Virus record (IMG/VR): IMGVR_UViG_3300037041_002839 | Coordinates: 1 to 28,618 of that record | Source: a virus | Direction: 5' to 3' (one strand) | DNA: 28,618 nt | Shown here: positions 3,540-28,618 of the stretch, one piece after another | Numbering within the stretch: position 1 is the stretch's first letter | Layout of the letters: every line of letters begins with the position of its first letter | Translations under genes and position numbers: made by a program | Notes under the pieces: model-generated | Told to the model about the DNA's origin: nothing | Databases searched by the model: none | What the model saw: the letters and a program-made list of their open reading frames with translations, nothing else

Positions 3540-5015
3540 CTAATAGCGACGGTGCTCCACTTTGCCGCCCTCTCGTCTGTGATGGGCTGCCTTCCTGTCC
3601 TTGATCCACTGTGGGATAAAAGGAGTGACATCAACCTTGACAGAGAGTGCACACTGTAGAGCCAGTGCCAGTGCAATCACTGAGTCCCCGTGGTGGAGTG
3701 GTGAGCGTGGACATTCAGGGACACCACGGTCATTGAGTATGAAAGATCGCAGCTCACCGACAGTGTGGCTGTCAAGCTGGAGGATACGCCCTCGGAGTAT
3801 GCTGTCCTTCAGGTAATCAAGCATCATGGGCTTGTTGTGTGCATTCGTTGTCCAGTATTTCCCAGCGGCATCTGTCCACTGTGGCACGCGAGCATGCTGG
3901 AGCTCATTGACAATGATACCTCCCCATGTGCCGTTGCTTTCAACAAGCACCTTGGCGCCATTCCACTTTGCACTTGCAGCAGCAACAGTCTCTGCCCATT
4001 CAACAGGTGCTTCAGTGCGTGACCGGCGGATCTCAACCACCTGACCGCTGCTGCAGTGAACCACAACAAGCACTGATGGATCACCACCTGTCCCAGCGCC
4101 AGCATCGACACCAATGGTATACTTTGCAGCGGCTTGCACTCTCTCTATCTGTCCACCAGCAGGCTCCAGCTGTAGGATCTCCAGGTCACGGAGAGTCTCT
4201 GCCCCCATCCAAGCGCCATCATTCTGGGAGTAAGCATCATCAACCGAGAGTGGATACTCACGCCGAAACTTTGTCTCCCCCAGCTGCCCACTCATCTTCC
4301 CTCCCCAGCACTGCTGTCCCGGTGTAAGCGTGCTGTCAGGATCAGGCTCGAAGTCTGGGCCTGGCGGTGTGCTGTACTCGGCGTGGTCTGTCCACTTGAA
4401 AAATAGGAAGTTCCAGTCTACAATACCAGCATCCCACAGCCCAATCTCGCGGTGTAGTGGATCACCAAAGAAGTTTGCCGTGCTCTCAATGAGGAGCTGA
4501 CCACCGTTGAGGGCTGCTATGGCTGTGCTCTTGAGCTCATCTGCGTCAGCAGTAAATGCAAACTCACTGATATGGATGGAAGAAGCTGTAAAGCTGCGTA
4601 GACCACCATCACCGCCAGATGACAGCGCACTCACACCTGCGCCTGTATCAGCGAATCGAAGCTCGCTGCTTGTTCTCACAGAAAGCTTTCGCTGCAGTGG
4701 ACGAGGAAGACCATCGTAGAATCGCAGGAACATCTGAAATATGTGTTTCGAAGATGCTGATTTATGTGACAAGATAACATGTGTTAGTGAGTCATGGGAG
4801 GTGTAAATCCGCCAGAAGAAGAAAGCAGCGGCGGCAGTCGTAGATCCTATTTGTCGCGGCTTTAAGACCAGCGTGTCATCACCGCCCGCAAGTGCTTCGA
4901 TGATTTGCATTTGCTCAGAGTTTGGTCGAAAGCTTACACTCTTGCCCTTTTTGTCAATGATCTTTAAGCGCCCACAGAACTCAAGAGGATCAGCGAGTAT
5001 TGCCTTCACATTCAT
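3540..5015 (-). CDS. terL: Terminase large subunit (TerL)
   Basis: The protein is the ATP-driven DNA packaging motor with a headful or end-cutting nuclease. From the ATG at 5015 it is 491 aa. The N-terminal ATPase shows a Walker A variant LKPRQIGSTT (51-60), a Walker B ending in the catalytic Glu (SIHISEFAF, Glu151), and the coupling motif LIESTAN (175-181). The C-terminal RNase H-like nuclease shows IGVDAG (Asp304), VLVESNG (Glu359) and HHGDSVIALALA (Asp444). I chose 5015, not a TTG 15 nt earlier, because ATG and the upstream stop overlap as ATGA. Length and all key residues are normal, so it should be active. Confidence 0.95.
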   Translation of the reverse strand: MNVKAILADPLEFCGRLKIIDKKGKSVSFRPNSEQMQIIEALAGGDDTLVLKPRQIGSTTAAAAFFFWRIYTSHDSLTHVILSHKSASSKHIFQMFLRFYDGLPRPLQRKLSVRTSSELRFADTGAGVSALSSGGDGGLRSFTASSIHISEFAFTADADELKSTAIAALNGGQLLIESTANFFGDPLHREIGLWDAGIVDWNFLFFKWTDHAEYSTPPGPDFEPDPDSTLTPGQQCWGGKMSGQLGETKFRREYPLSVDDAYSQNDGAWMGAETLRDLEILQLEPAGGQIERVQAAAKYTIGVDAGAGTGGDPSVLVVVHCSSGQVVEIRRSRTEAPVEWAETVAAASAKWNGAKVLVESNGTWGGIIVNELQHARVPQWTDAAGKYWTTNAHNKPMMLDYLKDSILRGRILQLDSHTVGELRSFILNDRGVPECPRSPLHHGDSVIALALALQCALSVKVDVTPFIPQWIKDRKAAHHRREGGKVEHRRY

Positions 5016-5278
5016 AGTGTCTTTGTCCAAGACTTCATTTCATCCAGCATCTCAGCACGCTTGGTGACTGTCTCTCCTTGTGCCTGATAAGCTGCTGCAA
5101 GACCAGACTGCCGAGTCGCAGCGCTCACAGTCTTGATAAGCTCGATGATAATAGTTTTTCCAAGCTCTGGGGGATCGCCAGCATCAAGGTCTAGGAGGGC
5201 TGCTTCAATGAGTGCCCAGCAGAGAGCATCGGCATCACGTTTCTTTGTAGCTTTGAGGGCAGGGGCGTACTTACTCAA
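5012..5278 (-). CDS. Small protein upstream of TerL, possible terminase small subunit
   Basis: The 88-aa protein is largely helical and mixed charge (starts SKYAPALKATKKRDADAL, ends EMLDEMKSWTKTL). It overlaps terL as ATGA, the position and coupling expected of a small terminase subunit that recognises DNA for packaging. No classic HTH can be pointed to, so this rests on context. The start is odd: the only standard in-frame start is TTG at 5278 with a weak AGG upstream. The frame stays open back to 5323, giving about 15 more codons (IEARGHTYFYSRFNT) directly after the preceding stop, which hints at a longer product from a rare start codon. Confidence 0.55.
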   Translation of the reverse strand: MSKYAPALKATKKRDADALCWALIEAALLDLDAGDPPELGKTIIIELIKTVSAATRQSGLAAAYQAQGETVTKRAEMLDEMKSWTKTL

Positions 5279-5754: not shown

Positions 5755-5782
5755 TTGATTACTTTGACACTTGCTCCATACT
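5755..5782 (+). promoter_or_regulatory. Weak candidate promoter for the plus-strand nuclease
   Basis: TTGATT (5755-5760), a 16-nt spacer and CATACT (5777-5782) each match the sigma70 consensus at four of six places. This is the best pair I can find before the rightward gene, and initiation would fall near 5789. Confidence 0.3.
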
Positions 5783-5802
5783 TAACTTTGATGGAGTGGA
5801 AA

Positions 5803-6261
5803 ATGTCAACAGCAGATTGGAATACAGCAGATGGAAAGCGTGCTCTTCAGGTTGGTAAAGAGTTCGAAGGTCGTCTCTTCAGCATTATGTGTGAAGCAGA
5901 TCCTGATGCTCAGTGGATAGCAAATGATCCTGAAAGATTCTTTGATGGTTACGATATGATCTTTCGTGGTAAGCGTGTTGAAGTAAAGAGCAATGCTGGT
6001 GTCTCCGCTTGGGGCAAGCACTATGACACTGTCTGTGTTGAGGTCACAACCAAAGCAGGCCGTCCTATCGGTTGGAGCACCGGCAAGAGTGATGTTGTTG
6101 TCTTCATCGATCGAAGCACATGCTGGGCTTACGTCTATAGATCATCAGTCCTGAGGGAGTGGATCAAGAGTGGACGCACCTTCTCCAGCAATGATGCGCA
6201 GTGTATCATCATGCCGTGGATCTGCAAGGACGCAGGCTTCGTTGCACAGATTGCAATATGA
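5803..6261 (+). CDS. PD-(D/E)XK-type nuclease
   Basis: This is the only gene on the plus strand. The 152-aa protein has an N-terminal helix with Glu20/Glu22 (GKEFEGRL), then FFDGYDMIF with Asp51 and GKRVEVKSNAG with Glu60-x-Lys62, the D-ExK signature of the PD-(D/E)XK fold. GWSTGKSDVVVFIDR (about 87-101) fits a later core strand. Family members cut or resolve DNA in phages, as T7 gp3 does, or act as Holliday-junction or restriction-like enzymes. The exact role here is inferred. The start at 5803 has GGAG upstream; an ATG at 5791 would add four residues. Divergent control from the palindromic region suggests expression at a different time from the structural genes. Its 3' end is 21 nt from the convergent HTH gene. 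Confidence 0.65.
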   Translation: MSTADWNTADGKRALQVGKEFEGRLFSIMCEADPDAQWIANDPERFFDGYDMIFRGKRVEVKSNAGVSAWGKHYDTVCVEVTTKAGRPIGWSTGKSDVVVFIDRSTCWAYVYRSSVLREWIKSGRTFSSNDAQCIIMPWICKDAGFVAQIAI

Positions 6262-6863: not shown

Positions 6864-7538
6864 TTAAAGCAGACCGAGCATCTCTTCGAGTTCTTCAAGA
6901 GTGGGAGCAGCCGTCACTGAGAGAGGCGTGCCATCATCAGCTATGGTAATCCATGTCGAGTCATGGCGAAGTGTATCAGTGAGCTTCTGGAGTGGGGCAG
7001 CGTATGCTTGTGCTTCAGCGCGTGCTGCCTTGTTGTGGCGTCTGCCTTCAACAATCGCTGCTGTGTGCGCACTTGATTGTGTTCTTCCCTTCTGTGAAGC
7101 GCTCATATTGGCACGATGCGCAGGTGTTAAAGGAGCAACTGACTTACCTTTCTTCGCGATGCTGATTGCAGGAATCTTTTTCCCTGTCTTTGTAGCACTG
7201 ATACTGGCGCGAGTCGCATCACTCACTGAAGTTCCAGCGCCACCGCCACTTGTCAAGTTGAAACCGTCCGGTGCCATGCATCCAAGAGTGGCTATCCACC
7301 AGCATTCCCGCTCATTCAGTTCCTCTCTCTTGCACTCTTCGAGGATAACAAATGAGAACTCTCCAACACCATACTTCATGATGGCACCTTTGATTCCAGC
7401 AGAGTTCTTCTTAGGCGTTGAGTGCTGCTTCCATCTCTCAAAACAATCCACACTTTGACCACAGTATTTTCTGCCTGTCTCAACGTGTGTGATGCAGTAA
7501 ATTCCCGTCGTCTTCTTTAAGTAGTAATTAGTTTTCAT
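6864..7538 (-). CDS. GIY-YIG homing endonuclease with NUMOD3-like repeats
   Basis: The 224-aa protein starts with the GIY-YIG nuclease fold: GIY at 12-14, KYCG (YIG variant, Cys for Ile) at 24-27, the catalytic Arg in the helix FERWKQH, and a conserved Glu in LNEREC near 76. From about residue 95, Ser/Thr/Lys-rich segments (SDATRASISATKTGKK, ISIAKKGKS, HRANMSASQKGR) recur in the manner of NUMOD3 DNA-binding repeats. Such proteins are usually free-standing homing enzymes that spread between phage genomes. It overlaps the end of the palm-like gene by 11 nt, so it may have inserted at or fused to its 3' edge. It appears intact. Confidence 0.85.
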   Translation of the reverse strand: MKTNYYLKKTTGIYCITHVETGRKYCGQSVDCFERWKQHSTPKKNSAGIKGAIMKYGVGEFSFVILEECKREELNERECWWIATLGCMAPDGFNLTSGGGAGTSVSDATRASISATKTGKKIPAISIAKKGKSVAPLTPAHRANMSASQKGRTQSSAHTAAIVEGRRHNKAARAEAQAYAAPLQKLTDTLRHDSTWITIADDGTPLSVTAAPTLEELEEMLGLL

Positions 7539-8550
7539 AGAGTTCTACCGTCCATTTGTAACCTGTTGCTTCTTTAAGCTCGAGTAAGATATCTGCGATG
7601 TCACCGTTAACGTCAGCAACGAAACCGTCGTGAACTCTGAGGATGATGTTGTCACGGCCAACAACTTCAAATGCAGTATCAATGATGCGCTGCTCATGTG
7701 TTGTAAAGAACATGTGAGCCCCTTCAACACGGCACTCTTGCAGTGTCGATGCAATCCACTTGCCAAGCTCATCATACCAAGGGACACCAACTGCATGAAG
7801 CTTGAATCCACTGTCAGGATGGAAGAGACGTGACCGCATTGCTTTTGCTTTCTTCTCAATACTCTTTACCGTATCATACTTTAGTGCGTACGTGTAGCAT
7901 TCAGTATCGATAATGCGCTGAAGGAAAGCTGTCTTGCTATCACACATTGCCGTAAAGTCAGGATGCTCAGTGATGCCGCGCTCTTGAAGTAGATGACGGA
8001 AAATGTTTGGAAAGCAAGCGTCAATGTCGAAATCGTGGAAGCCTGCAAACTTAATTCGTTTCATTTCTTTTGTGAGTCCTTGGTCAGCATGGTAAATTCG
8101 TGCGCCTGCATCTGAAGTGGTGTAGTTCCGAACATCAGCGCCTGGATACGGAATGGGCTCTAAAGCCTTTGTGCTCTTGGCTTTCCGCGCTAAGTCTCCA
8201 CTATAAGATGTCTTCCTGTGGTGTTCCTGTCTGTAAGAGTGGATGAGTCTGTTCTCTTGTGCGAGACATCTTTCGAACAGGGCGGAGAACGCCGGTGTCT
8301 GTGCCTCGAGGAGGAAGCAGATGCCAGCCGCCCGGTTGCTGTAGCGCTTCACATGGAAGCACGCGTCTCTGATAACAGGATACTGCTCAGTGAGTGCTTT
8401 CATCTGGGCAGAAGGAATAAACTCCGCTCCCCATCGTGCTGTTGAGACAAACAATTCCATCAATGCAATGTGCCCTCGACCTATACGCTGGAGGGAGGGC
8501 ACATTGATTTTGAGGAAATCTTTATAGAGGGCGGTGGTGCTACTGGACAT
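7528..8550 (-). CDS. Protein with polymerase palm-like motifs, 340 aa
   Basis: I do not recognise a named family. Residues 149-158 (GARIYHADQG) and the helix after them lead into FHDFDIDACFPNIF (171-184), which resembles polymerase motif A: a strand, a catalytic-type Asp, then a helix with P-N. Near the end, IILRVHDGFVADV (302-314) resembles motif C of family A DNA polymerases and T7-type RNA polymerases, where V-H-D lies in a beta hairpin. A Lys-rich helix between them (KYDTVKSIEKKAKAMRSR) could serve as motif B. The order A-B-C is right, and 340 aa could hold a minimal palm with no exonuclease. This is pattern recognition only. The ATG at 8550 (GGAG upstream) is preferred to a GTG at 8577 because the latter lies inside the leader structure. 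Confidence 0.5.
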   Translation of the reverse strand: MSSSTTALYKDFLKINVPSLQRIGRGHIALMELFVSTARWGAEFIPSAQMKALTEQYPVIRDACFHVKRYSNRAAGICFLLEAQTPAFSALFERCLAQENRLIHSYRQEHHRKTSYSGDLARKAKSTKALEPIPYPGADVRNYTTSDAGARIYHADQGLTKEMKRIKFAGFHDFDIDACFPNIFRHLLQERGITEHPDFTAMCDSKTAFLQRIIDTECYTYALKYDTVKSIEKKAKAMRSRLFHPDSGFKLHAVGVPWYDELGKWIASTLQECRVEGAHMFFTTHEQRIIDTAFEVVGRDNIILRVHDGFVADVNGDIADILLELKEATGYKWTVELYEN

Positions 8551-8603
8551 ATGGTCTCCGGTGGGGAGTGGATACACCGGAATTCCACTCCCAGTAGCAC
8601 CAC
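8534..8603 (-). promoter_or_regulatory. Structured mRNA leader over the start of the palm-like gene
   Basis: In the minus-strand transcript GTGGTGCTACTGG (8603-8591) pairs perfectly over 13 bp with CCAGTAGCACCAC (8546-8534), which is codons 2-6. Inside are two competing hairpins: GGGAGTGG (8592-8585) with CCACTCCC (8571-8564), and CCGGTG (8580-8575) with CACCGG (8563-8558). The second hides part of the GGAG ribosome site (8559-8556); the first leaves it free. They cannot form together because no linker separates their 3' arms. The promoter at 8613-8640 would start RNA about 3 nt before the outer stem. This looks like a translational switch. Confidence 0.5.
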
Positions 8604-8612
8604 TTACGTTTA

Positions 8613-8640
8613 AGTATATGCCAATGAGTAGAGTTGTTAA
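8613..8640 (-). promoter_or_regulatory. Promoter of the palm-like gene
   Basis: The minus strand has TTAACA (8640-8635), a 16-nt spacer and TATACT (8618-8613); each box matches five of six consensus bases. The predicted start near 8606 places the leader hairpin at the 5' end of the RNA. Confidence 0.5.
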
Positions 8641-8660: not shown

Positions 8661-9074
8661 CTAAAGTTTTGGAGGATTTAATCCTTCAGCAAATCTAATC
8701 TCAAAATGTGGGAGGTCCCTGAAGGTAGCCCAATCCCCGCCCCAGATCAATTCATAACGGAGACGCTCTTCTGCAGCCATCTCGGCCCAGCAGCTCTTCA
8801 CAACAGATGCAAGCTCTCGAAACCGCATGGTGTCATCCCAGTCAATTGGGAACGGCACAATGTCTATTGCTAGAGATGGCGAGACGTTGTGCTTGCTATG
8901 TGGGAACTGCAGCTTTGAAGCCCCAGCTCTATACGCTTTGTCTTGTGCTTCCTGATTCCTGAAACCACAAATGACAGTGAAGTCAGTCCGCTCGATGACA
9001 CGCTTCATCAGCCGTTGCAGCACTACATGGCAACTGTCCAATTGAGTTAAACTTCTTTGCGAAAATTTCGGCAT
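8661..9074 (-). CDS. Endolysin, M15-type peptidase
   Basis: This 137-aa enzyme should cut peptide bonds in peptidoglycan, as the T5 L-alanyl-D-glutamate endopeptidase does. The zinc site is visible: SKHNVSPSLAIDI gives His62 and Asp71, and DLPHFEI gives His123 with the catalytic acid Asp120. GFRNQEAQDKAYRAG (37-51) is the substrate-side region typical of the family. There is no signal peptide and no cell-wall-binding domain, so it would need a holin. It lies just after the holin-like gene. The length is normal for a single-domain M15 lysin. The ribosome site before ATG 9074 is weak (TGGA), perhaps to limit its level. Confidence 0.9.
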   Translation of the reverse strand: MPKFSQRSLTQLDSCHVVLQRLMKRVIERTDFTVICGFRNQEAQDKAYRAGASKLQFPHSKHNVSPSLAIDIVPFPIDWDDTMRFRELASVVKSCWAEMAAEERLRYELIWGGDWATFRDLPHFEIRFAEGLNPPKL

Positions 9075-9114: not shown

Positions 9115-9164
9115 CGGGGCGACCGTTGGAATACTTTCGACATTTTGATCTGACAGTCGCCCCG
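9115..9164 (-). repeat. Inverted repeat between holin-like gene and endolysin
   Basis: CGGGGCGAC (9115-9123) and GTCGCCCCG (9156-9164) form a perfect 9-bp GC-rich stem with a 32-nt loop. On the minus strand it starts 23 nt after the holin-like stop and is followed by GTCATTTCT, a poor T tract. It could slow polymerase, partly terminate, or protect the 3' end of the upstream message and so set endolysin dosage. Confidence 0.5.
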
Positions 9165-16846: not shown

Positions 16847-19482
16847 TACTTTCCTCCGGGAGCGGTATCCCGATCTTTAATATCAAGGGCAAGAGCGGTC
16901 TCGTGTGCTTTTTCCATGGCAGGTCCGTCACCAGCAAAAGTCAAAGTAATCTCCTCATAGGTTCTGCTAAATGGTATTCCCTTCGATTTATTGGCGCGGT
17001 ATAGATCATACGCAACTTTACCAGGTCCGCTTGCAGAAAGTCTGCTGAGTTTATCAGCTTTCTTTGCAAGCAGGTAAGCCCCCTCAAGACGATTGATGAG
17101 GTAGCCTTCCTTTGTCTGACGGGGACCAGTCTTTGGTCCTCTAAAAGACTCAATTGTACCAGCTGCTTTGATGTCAGCCATTGTCTTTGCTGCAGCTCCA
17201 GATGCCTCCATACTTTCGGTGCCTTCTTTGATTGCCATGCCGGCCCTCATGTTGGCTAACAGCGGGCGACTAGGACGATCGAAGGTACCTTCAGGTGCAG
17301 CAGCAGCAGATCGTGGCGCAACACCTTCAGTTGATGGTGAGGGGGCAGCCTCTGCTATTGGAGGAACAGAACCTGGGGAGTAACGACCAATTGATACACC
17401 TGCTGATGGAGGAACTGCACCGCTAGGAACTCTTACAGTACCTGTTGACTCTGCAATCGTCCCTCCCCCACCGCCGTAGGCCCCGCCGCCGCCGCCGCCA
17501 CCGCCACCGACAGAACGTTGGCTCAGCATGTCCTCAATGCCAATGCGCGGCGGTGCTGATGGAGCACGGAGAGCAGAAGTTCTAGCAGTCACTGGAACGG
17601 CTAGATCCGGTTCGAACGCTTCAGCTTCTGGTACAAATTCACCAGTGAAACGTGGGCGAAACGTTGCTGCACGAAGCTTGTCACGGAACTGCTGCTTCTC
17701 ATCTTCAGTCATCAGGTCGGCTGCTTCAGGACGAATATCTGCAGCTGCGGAAGGATACGTGCCCATTGGAGGAGCGGCTCGACCAGCAGCATCACGCTCC
17801 CTTGCTATGTACTCATCCAGTGCACGCTGATCGGCTCGACCGCCGGGCTTGCGGAAGAATGGAACAAGCTCACCGCCACGTTCTTCAAATGGAATCTCGA
17901 AAGGACGATCTTCCATTGCAGTCTCTATACCAATGCGTGATTCAGCATCCATCATACGCTTGGCTTCTGCAAACTTGGTGTCAGCCAGACGTTGGAGAGC
18001 TGACTGCCCGCCAGGTGTCAGACCAGGAGTACGTGCAGCCGCTCCAGCAGACACAGCATCAGCCATGATAGTCTCAGCGCTCTTGCCTTTAGCGATTGCT
18101 ACCTCTTCACGAGGAGGCATCGTGAAAGCAGGAGTTGCACGAGCTGCAGCCTGAGACTTTGACCATGCAACCTTCGCAGCCTGGTAAGAAGCCGCGTCTG
18201 CATCCGGATTACCTGTGTCAGGCCGGACCACACCGACTGATTCCCATGCGCTTGCAGTTGTAGGAGCAACTACAGGAGCGGCCGGAGCCGTGGCTGCAGA
18301 GGGCGCAGTCACTCCCGGAGCAGTTAGACCAGGTACACCACCAGGAATGGGGACACCGCTCTTGGAGAAGCTCTCAATGATGGTATCGCGCATCGGCTTA
18401 TCAGCACGTAGGAGCGCCTCAATTGCGTTGCGTTGACCGTAAGAAGGCGATGCCCTGACTGGACCAAAGCGACCAGCTGCAATATCACGGGCACGAGTAA
18501 TGTAGTCAAAGCCGGCCATTGATGGACGATCGAGCCCGGCTCTTTCAGTTCCAACATCAGCAATTTGCTGATCGATCCGTGCCTGAAGGGCTGCGTCGCT
18601 TTCTACAGCAGGAGGCGTCACAGTCGGAGCATCAGAAATATTCTTAGCAAGACCTGGATACTTCTTGTAGTACTCAGTTTCACGTGTTGTGACGGTTGGC
18701 GCTCCAGTTCCAGCTTCTGCTGCAATCGCTGCATCGATACGTTCGAAAGCTGAAGCAGCACCTGCTTGACCACCTGCACGTAAGCTCCCAACAACTTTGA
18801 TTCGTGCAGCATCACGAGCATCCTCGTAAGGCATGCCAGGATTGCCACTCATTATGGTTGCTGTGGTTGCATCAACTGATTCATTCACAACTCTGTATCG
18901 AGCAGCGTCTGCCTCAGCAGGCTTACCAGCTCCAATACGACCAGCTCCAATCTTTGTCTCCACATTTCCAACAAGACCAACAGCATCTGTTGGAGCAACC
19001 TGAGCTTTCGAAAGATCGATCTCTTTCTGCGCTTCATCACTGATTGCATCAGCACCAGTACCACCGCGCCGTCCACCACCGCCAGTAGTCGTTGTTCCTG
19101 TTGTAACAACACCAGTAGCAGCCACTGCTTCATCGCGACGCGCCTGTTCAGCCTGACGATCACCTGCCTCACGCAGGGCAGAGATTGCAGCAGCATCAGT
19201 TGCGCTGAGACGACCTTCAGCAACACGGACCTTCAGCCCTTCGAGCTCCTTACGGCGTGCATCAAGAGCATCGAGGCGGTCGCGGTAACCTTTCATCTCT
19301 TCAGCGTATTGCTTCGAACCAAGCTCAAGCTCAAGCAGCGACTGCTTTTGAGCCATTTCCCACTGGTTGGCGCGCTCCTTGGTGAAGACAGACGTGTACT
19401 CACCAGCAGCTGAGTCTTTGTACTTCTTTACCTGATTTGGCGAGATGACATAGACGCCCTTCGCGACCTGAGATATTGCCAT
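16846..19482 (-). CDS. Internal virion protein, 878 aa, low-complexity
   Basis: The first 125 residues are helical and charged (YTSVFTKERANQWEMAQKQS, then ELGSKQYAEEMKGYRDRLDA). The rest is rich in A, P, G, T and R, with long stretches that look unfolded. A Gly run broken by AY lies near residues 655-672. The C-terminal 90 residues are helical again (GYLINRLEGAYLLAKKADKL). It lies second in the three-gene ejection set, matching T7 gp15 in order and rough size, but I see no direct sequence match. Ribosome access comes from GGAG 6-10 nt before ATG 19482, which starts 9 nt after the preceding stop. Confidence 0.6.
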   Translation of the reverse strand: MAISQVAKGVYVISPNQVKKYKDSAAGEYTSVFTKERANQWEMAQKQSLLELELGSKQYAEEMKGYRDRLDALDARRKELEGLKVRVAEGRLSATDAAAISALREAGDRQAEQARRDEAVAATGVVTTGTTTTGGGGRRGGTGADAISDEAQKEIDLSKAQVAPTDAVGLVGNVETKIGAGRIGAGKPAEADAARYRVVNESVDATTATIMSGNPGMPYEDARDAARIKVVGSLRAGGQAGAASAFERIDAAIAAEAGTGAPTVTTRETEYYKKYPGLAKNISDAPTVTPPAVESDAALQARIDQQIADVGTERAGLDRPSMAGFDYITRARDIAAGRFGPVRASPSYGQRNAIEALLRADKPMRDTIIESFSKSGVPIPGGVPGLTAPGVTAPSAATAPAAPVVAPTTASAWESVGVVRPDTGNPDADAASYQAAKVAWSKSQAAARATPAFTMPPREEVAIAKGKSAETIMADAVSAGAAARTPGLTPGGQSALQRLADTKFAEAKRMMDAESRIGIETAMEDRPFEIPFEERGGELVPFFRKPGGRADQRALDEYIARERDAAGRAAPPMGTYPSAAADIRPEAADLMTEDEKQQFRDKLRAATFRPRFTGEFVPEAEAFEPDLAVPVTARTSALRAPSAPPRIGIEDMLSQRSVGGGGGGGGGAYGGGGGTIAESTGTVRVPSGAVPPSAGVSIGRYSPGSVPPIAEAAPSPSTEGVAPRSAAAAPEGTFDRPSRPLLANMRAGMAIKEGTESMEASGAAAKTMADIKAAGTIESFRGPKTGPRQTKEGYLINRLEGAYLLAKKADKLSRLSASGPGKVAYDLYRANKSKGIPFSRTYEEITLTFAGDGPAMEKAHETALALDIKDRDTAPGGK

Positions 19483-26993: not shown

Positions 26994-28016
26994 TTAGAAG
27001 AGATCTCCATTGAAGAGTAGAGCGCAGCTGGCAAGGTTGTCAGCGATGAGCTGGCCTTTCCAGTAGATCTGAGCGGAACGAGCGGTAGTGCCGGGGATGT
27101 ACTCAAAGGGGCTGACCGCGAGGTCGCCATCGGAGTGCATAACCATCTTGATGCCGTCGAAGTTGATGAAGTACATGGTGGCCTCAAGGTTGGCACCGTT
27201 GACAGTGGCGTCAGGCATGAAGACATCCTGAACAACTGCAGCGTTACCAAAAGCGAGGGACATGAAACCGGCATTCAGCTGCTTCTCATCAATGTAGCGC
27301 TCCTGAGTGAACATGGCGCGACGGTAGTTGGCGTATCCAGCCTCGGAGGCAAGGACAAGCTTGATCTCGCCCATAGGAGCGCGAGCCGAAGTCTCAGCAG
27401 CAATCTGGTGCATGCCTCTGATACCGTTGGTACCGAAGGCGGCGCCGGCATTGAAGATGCGGTTGAAGAGACCGTTGCCGTCAGGAACCAGGGAGCGAGC
27501 GAGACCGCCCACCGTGTTGGTCTGACCAGCGGCGGTAGGAGCGCCCTGCTCCAGGAAGCCAGTAGCGGTAAGAACACCGTTGAGAGTCCCGAGAGAAGTC
27601 AGAACGGCGGAGTTACCAGCGACAAGCTGACGGTTGATCTCCCTGCGGAGAAGTCCCATCACGTTGCGCATACGGGCTTCAACAATCTTGACGACAGCCT
27701 TCTCACCGGAGTTCTCAAGCTCTTCCTTCTTGGTGATAACGATGGGAGCCACGAAGTCAGACCACTCATAGAGAGCGGGCTGCATGACATCCTGCACCGC
27801 CAGGGAGACAGGCTCGTAACCAGTAGCAAGCTGAGTTATGGTCGAGTGGTTGCTGACAGCGAGGGGACGCTGAATTTTTATCCCTCCGTCTTCATATTCA
27901 ATACCACCGAGACGCTTCGCAAAGTCCAAAAACGGCACACGCTGGAAGAGTTCATCAACTTCCCCATCGCGGATAGAAAATAGAGTCGAGCTGAGTAGCT
28001 CATTAGAAATCGGCAT
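26994..28016 (-). CDS. Major capsid protein
   Basis: The 340-aa protein should have the HK97 fold and form the icosahedral shell. It opens MPISNELLSSTLFSIRDGEV, then FQRVPFLDFAKRLG. The region near 90-125 (FVAPIVITKKEELENSGEKA, then KIVEARMRNVMGLL) is a strand-plus-long-helix segment typical of the capsid spine helix. The C terminus is beta-rich (MYFINFDGIKMVMHSDGDLA, then YWKGQLIADN). Length is usual for phages without a fused protease domain. AGGAGG 6 nt before ATG 28016 is the strongest ribosome site in the window, in keeping with high expression. No capsid protease gene is seen. Confidence 0.88.
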   Translation of the reverse strand: MPISNELLSSTLFSIRDGEVDELFQRVPFLDFAKRLGGIEYEDGGIKIQRPLAVSNHSTITQLATGYEPVSLAVQDVMQPALYEWSDFVAPIVITKKEELENSGEKAVVKIVEARMRNVMGLLRREINRQLVAGNSAVLTSLGTLNGVLTATGFLEQGAPTAAGQTNTVGGLARSLVPDGNGLFNRIFNAGAAFGTNGIRGMHQIAAETSARAPMGEIKLVLASEAGYANYRRAMFTQERYIDEKQLNAGFMSLAFGNAAVVQDVFMPDATVNGANLEATMYFINFDGIKMVMHSDGDLAVSPFEYIPGTTARSAQIYWKGQLIADNLASCALLFNGDLF

Positions 28017-28048
28017 TGTTGCCTCCTATTTGTAAGAACAAGATACGG

Positions 28049-28618
28049 TTAAATTTCGGTTGTCGGCTGCGCCGGTCCGGTGTCCACAGTTGAGACGATA
28101 GGTGACGTTTCCGTTCTATCATTTCTGGCGGGAGCACTTGCCCTTACAAGTTGTTTTGCAGCTAACGTAGCTTTTAGCGTCGCTTTCTGCTTTGCTTTCG
28201 TTTCTTCAGATTTTGGCGTTGGCCGCTTTCTGGTTAGTCCGGTTCCTTTTATCTTTTCAGAAATCTTTCGGCAACGTTCGGCTTCCATCTCAGGAGTCCT
28301 GTTTGCATTCCATTCAGTCATTGCAATCTTGTGCTGTGTCCAGTCCTGCTTAGCGGTTGCTTCTTTAATTTTGCGATTGTGGTCTTCAGAATTCTTCATT
28401 CCACGACGACTTCCGCCAAGTGCAACCTGCTTTACGTTGTAGAGACCGCTATGTCTAAAGATACCGAACGCCATCTCTTCCAGAGCGTGGCGATTTTCAG
28501 CATCACACACCATCAAAACTTCATATTCAAAAGCATCAGGACCGTGCTTATTGAAAGAAGCCTGAAGGTGACAGCTATGATGCTTGCCACGACGTAGCAT
28601 GCTACAGTGGTCTTTCCA
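28049..28618 (-). CDS. GIY-YIG homing endonuclease, C-terminal part (5' end cut by window edge)
   Basis: The frame is open through the window edge; an internal ATG at 28600 is not the start. The first residues are WKDHCSMLRRGKHHSCHLQA, then FNKHGPDAFEYEVL. This is the alpha helix and following strand of the GIY-YIG fold after the YIG strand, with the catalytic Glu in ALEEMAF. After this come SRRGMKNSEDHNRKI and further Lys-rich NUMOD3-like segments. The GIY and YIG motifs are missing from this part; the matching start lies at 1-44. It ends 32 nt before the capsid ATG. Confidence 0.8.
   Translation of the reverse strand, partial: WKDHCSMLRRGKHHSCHLQASFNKHGPDAFEYEVLMVCDAENRHALEEMAFGIFRHSGLYNVKQVALGGSRRGMKNSEDHNRKIKEATAKQDWTQHKIAMTEWNANRTPEMEAERCRKISEKIKGTGLTRKRPTPKSEETKAKQKATLKATLAAKQLVRASAPARNDRTETSPIVSTVDTGPAQPTTEI

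Follow-up and report, generated by a model that had tools for sequence, protein, structure and literature searches.

Does the gene at 7528..8550 (minus strand, stop at 7528-7530) of a small virus genome encode a polymerase, and, if so, of which family? The window, by which we mean the whole stretch of DNA analysed here, is a 28,618-base virus record (IMG/VR IMGVR_UViG_3300037041_002839, classed linear). The gene is a single open frame that starts with the ATG at 8550 and encodes 340 aa before its stop. A Shine-Dalgarno-like GGAG stands 5 nt ahead of the ATG, and the product (P0001) carries, in this order, DFDIDACFPNIF (D173, D175, D177) and ILRVHDGFVADV (D308). An initial annotation took these for motifs A and C of a family A or T7-type palm in a protein that has no exonuclease and belongs to no named family. 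The frame and the motif order were confirmed, and searches of Pfam, PHROG, NCBIfam and PDB sequences found no exonuclease, no nuclease and no other domain. Sequence queries with P0001 returned no match in Pfam, PHROGs, NCBIfam, PDB sequences, phages, plasmids or IMG/VR, profile scans of genome contigs recovered no relative, and the database searches yielded no homologue close enough for a purifying-selection test.

The window probably represents an almost complete genome of ~28.7 kb, because its ends split a single GIY-YIG homing endonuclease gene and the gene order wraps correctly across them, from a scaffold-like gene to the major capsid gene. The two parts of the split gene (1-79 and 28049-28618, same strand) encode MTGIVYSITNILNG at the window start and RWKDHCSMLRRGKHHSCHLQASFNKHG at the window end, with ~40 nt missing by an eye estimate that took as its guide record G013, where the GIY-YIG gene in this place is intact. 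Three relatives close on themselves: G004 at 29.9 kb (exact 87-base overlap), G071 at 32.6 kb (123 bases) and G046 at 30.4 kb (199 bases). The virus is a small tailed phage in an uncultured clade with genomes of ~29-33 kb. A portal query found 45 IMG/VR loci and a TerL alignment query 80 loci; among 50,697 phage records the portal and a 758-aa virion protein had no match and the capsid matched at 21-28% only, so that set includes no close member of the clade. TerL (3540..5030, minus strand) served as the anchor for finding relatives and for the tree, and the endolysin gene (M15 peptidase, 8661..9074, minus strand; PHROG endolysin E 1.7e-34, PF13539 E 2e-8) forms the upstream border of a variable replication locus. 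A 168-aa protein is encoded at 5755-6261 on the plus strand, opposite to the late genes; it carries FDGYDMIFRGKRVEVKS, which by eye resembles a PD-(D/E)xK nuclease, and it has homologues in several clade genomes (44% identity in G063, 76% in G046) and no Pfam or PHROG match.

Relatives of P0001 stand at the same genome position. P0002 (357 aa, locus L012) and P0003 (391 aa, L022) are encoded 1.4-2 kb upstream of TerL, and P0004 (414 aa, L051, record G038) lies between endolysin and TerL. All three have the GR pair, a motif A of the form D-[IM]-x-N-C-H-P and a motif C of the form [F/H]DG, and P0003 and P0004 also have the RxxxK-(x)n-YG signature. Queried with P0003, the candidate stretches yielded P0004 (E 2e-41), P0002 (E 3e-12) and L245 (E 2e-8), all E-values being relative to those stretches. 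The match in L245 is to the N-terminus of a 743-aa ORF, which runs on into a P-loop region that reads by eye as a D5-like helicase; a packaging-ATPase-like gene (likewise a by-eye label) lies in the vicinity, and polinton-like genes stand beside the ORF. Fusion to a D5-like helicase is a known architecture of the TV-Pol family, which Iyer, Abhiman and Aravind described in 2008, with a TV-Pol of the tailed phage Ma-LMM01 among its members and with a definition that takes in stand-alone forms as well as fusions to a D5-like helicase or to a helical domain at the N-terminus (PMC2579912). P0001 is the least conserved of the four phage proteins (16-21% identity).

We placed P0001 with a test profile built from P0002, P0003, P0004 and the L245 TV-Pol, from which P0001 itself was left out. 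In hhalign, residues 149-215 matched this profile with E 7.3e-5 (score 40.7, probability 62%), a score above those of all 278 controls (best 26.3 in 120 shuffled copies and 27.0 in 158 unrelated ORFs taken from these phages); against the three relatives only, without L245, the match was weak (P 0.005, probability 7%). In an hmmsearch with the TV-Pol profile, P0001 ranked first behind the profile's own members (E 6.4e-4). The significant match is limited to residues 149-215, over which the Arg of the hairpin, motif A and the helix after it are in register, and in an extended alignment the HDG of P0001 (D308) is in register with motif C of the relatives, [F/H]DG. In our view P0001 is likely to be a far-diverged TV-Pol that stands alone, a minimal enzyme of family A serving the phage as primase/polymerase in a swappable slot. 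The assignment to TV-Pols replaces the initial verdict that no named family fits; on this placement the suggested small, separate polymerase group is one already known since 2008 and not a new one.

Structure prediction points the same way for the relatives. An AlphaFold model of P0003, made with three relatives, reached pLDDT 69, rising to ~81-92 in the strands that surround motifs A and C. Against the PDB, all 50 of the best-listed matches were family A DNA polymerases, at modest TM-scores of about 0.4; 1taq matched with E 2.4e-7 and probability 1.0, and Taq, T7 DNA polymerase and Klenow all matched at about 2e-7 to 4e-7. Against BFVD, the first match was a 400-aa tailed-phage protein (E 2.8e-20), and the next included the replication proteins of Zamilon and Qinghai Lake virophage (V6BPG7, A0A0R5K514). 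The corresponding model of P0001 with three relatives has pLDDT 33, at which a Foldseek result is meaningless, and for this reason we infer its family A palm fold through its relatives. The proposal of family A/T7-type palm motifs thus gains support from homologues at the same position, one of them with a family A fold.

The residues expected of a TV-Pol can be followed along P0001. R151 (8098..8100, minus strand, as are all codons given here), in a GAR that reads GR in the relatives, is the putative template-strand Arg of the beta-hairpin; it is invariant in alignments A1, A4 and A5 and aligned in the hhalign output, and an Arg with this role is absolutely conserved in TV-Pols (PMC2579912). 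The catalytic Asp of motif A is D175 (8026..8028), the second D of D-F-D-I-D-A-C-F-P, in a column invariant in A1, A4 and A5. It is D175 rather than D173 or D177, because motif A of P0004 reads VLDM and keeps the D175 position only, not that of D173; the catalytic set first proposed is therefore upheld for D175 with D308 and not for D173 and D177. D308 (7627..7629), in HDG, is the motif C catalytic Asp and is invariant in A1 and A4, and R151, D175 and D308 are all invariant in the four-sequence alignment. Five residues past the motif A Asp, F180 (8011..8013; an alignment reading) occupies a putative steric-gate position, the same offset as E710 in Klenow, G542 in T7 RNA polymerase and Y115 in HIV-1 reverse transcriptase. 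This position is Glu in Pol I, aromatic in reverse transcriptase and Gly in T7 RNA polymerase, and a Phe at the putative gate would favour dNTP use and argue against an RNA polymerase. D204 (7939..7941) is a weak candidate for the conserved Asp of the fingers, from an hhalign column; elsewhere in the fingers RxxxK is at best KxxxK (KSIEK-like), where the alignment is unreliable, and YG is absent.

The TV-Pol-like motif A calls for caution in annotation. Nearly all IMG/VR matches to a DNA pattern for DIDxxNCHP were class-II glutamine amidotransferases, and class-II glutamine amidotransferase-like phage proteins at L137-L243 share this string with the TV-Pol motif A; because these enzymes carry the same motif, it cannot be used alone. 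By themselves the motifs of P0001 are weak evidence; in their context they exceed chance.

The slot between endolysin and TerS/TerL is exchangeable and holds a TV-Pol, a Prim-Pol with helicase, a PolA-like protein with UvrD, or nothing. Upstream of TerL, L102 and L108 encode 821-839 aa proteins that join an AEP Prim-Pol to a VapE-like helicase (PF09250 E 6e-28; PF05272 E 5e-72), and L104 encodes a UvrD helicase and a 729-aa PolA-like protein with GRVY, FDFKNAH, RDVAK and MYDG motifs (PHROG DNA polymerase match 1e-5). The complete genomes G046, with a capsid 93% identical to that of the window, and G004 have no TV-Pol, Prim-Pol/helicase or PolA-like/UvrD module, and a search of both for remnants of P0001 found none. 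As these complete close relatives do without such a gene, a TV-Pol is not needed for replication in the clade. TV-Pols are scattered over three separate positions in the TerL tree. L102 and L104 have nearly identical TerL, with full support, and different replication modules; swapping has therefore happened repeatedly and, in at least one case, recently. Such exchange agrees with the polymerase swapping reported in larger phages (PMC11348598). Among the window proteins searched against Pfam and PHROG, several of which match nothing, none was recognised as a helicase, a primase or another polymerase, nor was an SSB-like partner recognised in the window. That P0001 is the phage's own polymerase is accordingly plausible, no other polymerase-like gene having been found in the nearly complete genome, but it looks accessory, complete close relatives having none.

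Most likely, by analogy with the characterised CcPol, P0001 would make or extend DNA primers for the phage, and the host would give the helicase and the main polymerase. The protein would be a palm-and-fingers enzyme like Pol I or T7, without exonuclease, in which D175 and D308 would bind two metal ions and which would join deoxynucleotides on single-stranded DNA. As primase/polymerase it would start or locally extend phage DNA synthesis, leaving the remaining replication to the host replisome and helicase. Primer extension is established for CcPol, which has been placed among the TV-Pols; together with MP, a partner with an OB fold, it also primes de novo, in dependence on its two Asp residues (PMC7581432, PMC10061031). 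We infer that P0001 itself folds, is active and DNA-specific, and serves phage replication, and that it would prime, and act without a partner. Counting against the TV-Pol reading are the model pLDDT of 33, the short profile match, the eroded fingers, the lack of a recognised helicase or SSB-like partner of the kind that CcPol works with, and the absence of the gene from complete close relatives.

A rival reading is a decaying or repurposed TV-Pol that has kept its palm, lost its activity and become, for example, a DNA-binding or regulatory protein travelling with the adjacent homing endonuclease. We regard this as unlikely. The eroded fingers without YG, the low conservation of P0001 among the four proteins and the sister genomes without the gene are all compatible with it, as is the GIY-YIG gene, which P0001 overlaps here and which directly follows its counterparts in L012 and G038. 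Rice (2023) set palm-only relatives, which may be vestigial and inactive, apart from those that keep key catalytic residues (PMC10061031). P0001 retains both catalytic Asp, the hairpin Arg, an open frame and a ribosome site. The overlapping gene (6864..7538, minus strand; Pfam PF01541 E 1e-7, PHROG homing endonuclease E 1.6e-29) has its start 11 nt into the end of P0001, across the P0001 stop. Three of the four TV-Pol genes have a GIY-YIG gene overlapping them or immediately after them (window 6864-7538, L012:3026-3373, L051:11741-12151), and an HNH gene lies near that of L022; the neighbourhood may be chance, because these phages are rich in homing endonucleases.

It is very improbable that P0001 is instead a single-subunit phage RNA polymerase of the T7 or N4 kind, transcribing phage genes. 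Its gate residue is aromatic, against glycine in T7 RNA polymerase, and it is far smaller than that enzyme; T7-type enzymes have a small gate residue and a promoter-binding N-terminal domain, whereas P0001 has Phe at the gate by alignment and matched no RNA polymerase model; the nearest profile is that of TV-Pol, and the best 50 PDB matches of the P0003 fold are all DNA polymerases. In its favour, the palm of T7-type RNA polymerases has the same motif order, and divPolA2 of other phages has been proposed as a possible RNA polymerase (PMC11348598). Even harder to credit is that P0001 is no polymerase and its motifs coincide by chance in an unrelated phage protein, as the amidotransferase motif A and the poor model might allow. 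Against it stand a profile score that none of the 278 controls reached, the alignment in register of hairpin Arg, motif A, next helix and also motif C, and a genome position shared with the true TV-Pols of the relatives.

A structured leader had been proposed for the gene and is borne out by a long-loop hairpin at 8534..8603 (minus strand; perfect 13-nt arms at 8534-8546 and 8591-8603): the RNA fold of 8515-8625 has -43.9 kcal/mol (z -6.3), the 3' arm spans codons 2-6 of P0001, with the ATG and the ribosome site immediately inward of it. An Rfam search of the leader gave no match. The promoter that had been proposed with it is not supported, as there was one consensus match against 2.5 expected by chance. 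Long-loop inverted repeats with perfect arms of 13-17 and loops of 24-64 occur about once or twice per genome across the clade, often near the endolysin-TerS region and with or without a polymerase gene (G038 29519-29593; L022 431-528; G071 18172-18237; G046 27974-28037; G010 5162-5211; L009 2596-2653). The hairpin is therefore not polymerase-specific, as similar repeats also occur in genomes without a TV-Pol, and it may act in translation control, as an origin or in some other way; the clade's repeats are candidates for an origin or a regulatory hairpin. A second inverted repeat of the window lies at 9115-9164 (12-nt arms, 92%, 26-nt loop), between the 9187-9465 gene and endolysin. Helicase-free initiation by a single gene, in which the TV-Pol would start phage DNA synthesis at the 8534-8603 hairpin beside its own gene, strikes us as doubtful; if true, the replication slot of the clade would consist of an origin hairpin and an exchangeable primer-making enzyme.

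Read as a TV-Pol, P0001 is a genuine and far-diverged member of a family already described, and the setting is an unusual one. TV-Pols have been known above all from transposons, SCC elements and virophages; P0001 widens their range to a clade of very small tailed phages, in one of which a TV-Pol appears to be the sole polymerase gene. With the same slot holding a TV-Pol, Prim-Pol/helicase, PolA-like/UvrD or no replication gene, the clade offers a natural comparison for testing how a primase-polymerase benefits a minimal phage. In situ exchange of phage polymerases was already known, and here it takes in AEP, PolA-like and TV-Pol modules at a genome size of ~30 kb.

Among known systems, the replicative family A DNA polymerases of phages have a 3'-5' exonuclease and a full thumb, palm and fingers, and P0001 has 340 aa and no exonuclease. 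The AEP Prim-Pol with VapE-like helicase of L102 and L108 shares the genome slot but belongs to another enzyme family and has its own helicase domain. The divPolA2 of barbaviruses and Vibrio phages (P0005) resembles P0001 as a small PolA-like palm without exonuclease in the variable neighbourhood of tailed phages, and it matches the TV-Pol profile weakly (E 0.008); in barbaviruses, however, it stands beside a regular PolB in genomes of 80-85 kb (PMC11348598). The TVpol-helicase fusions of virophages and polinton-like viruses (L245; BFVD V6BPG7 and A0A0R5K514) match the relatives of P0001 in sequence (E 2e-8 to P0003) and in fold, but are fused to a D5-like helicase in a eukaryotic-virus setting. 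The CcPol-MP primase of SCCmec is, like P0001, a mobile-element family A palm among the TV-Pols (PMC7581432, PMC10061031), although CcPol needs the OB-fold MP and has a helicase neighbour, neither of which was recognised for P0001. Within the TV-Pol family, P0001 differs in its strong divergence (no Pfam, PHROG or BLAST match), in an RxxxK that is not clearly kept, D204 being a weakly aligned candidate for the fingers Asp, and in a neighbourhood where no D5 helicase, integrase or resolvase was recognised; the family fold, a palm with N-terminal thumb helices, is represented by the palm of its relative P0003. TV-Pols occur in mobile elements and in small DNA viruses as minimal family A palm-and-fingers enzymes, stand-alone forms among them, and what P0001 shares with them is a profile relationship, the hairpin Arg, the two palm Asp and the lack of a fused nuclease.
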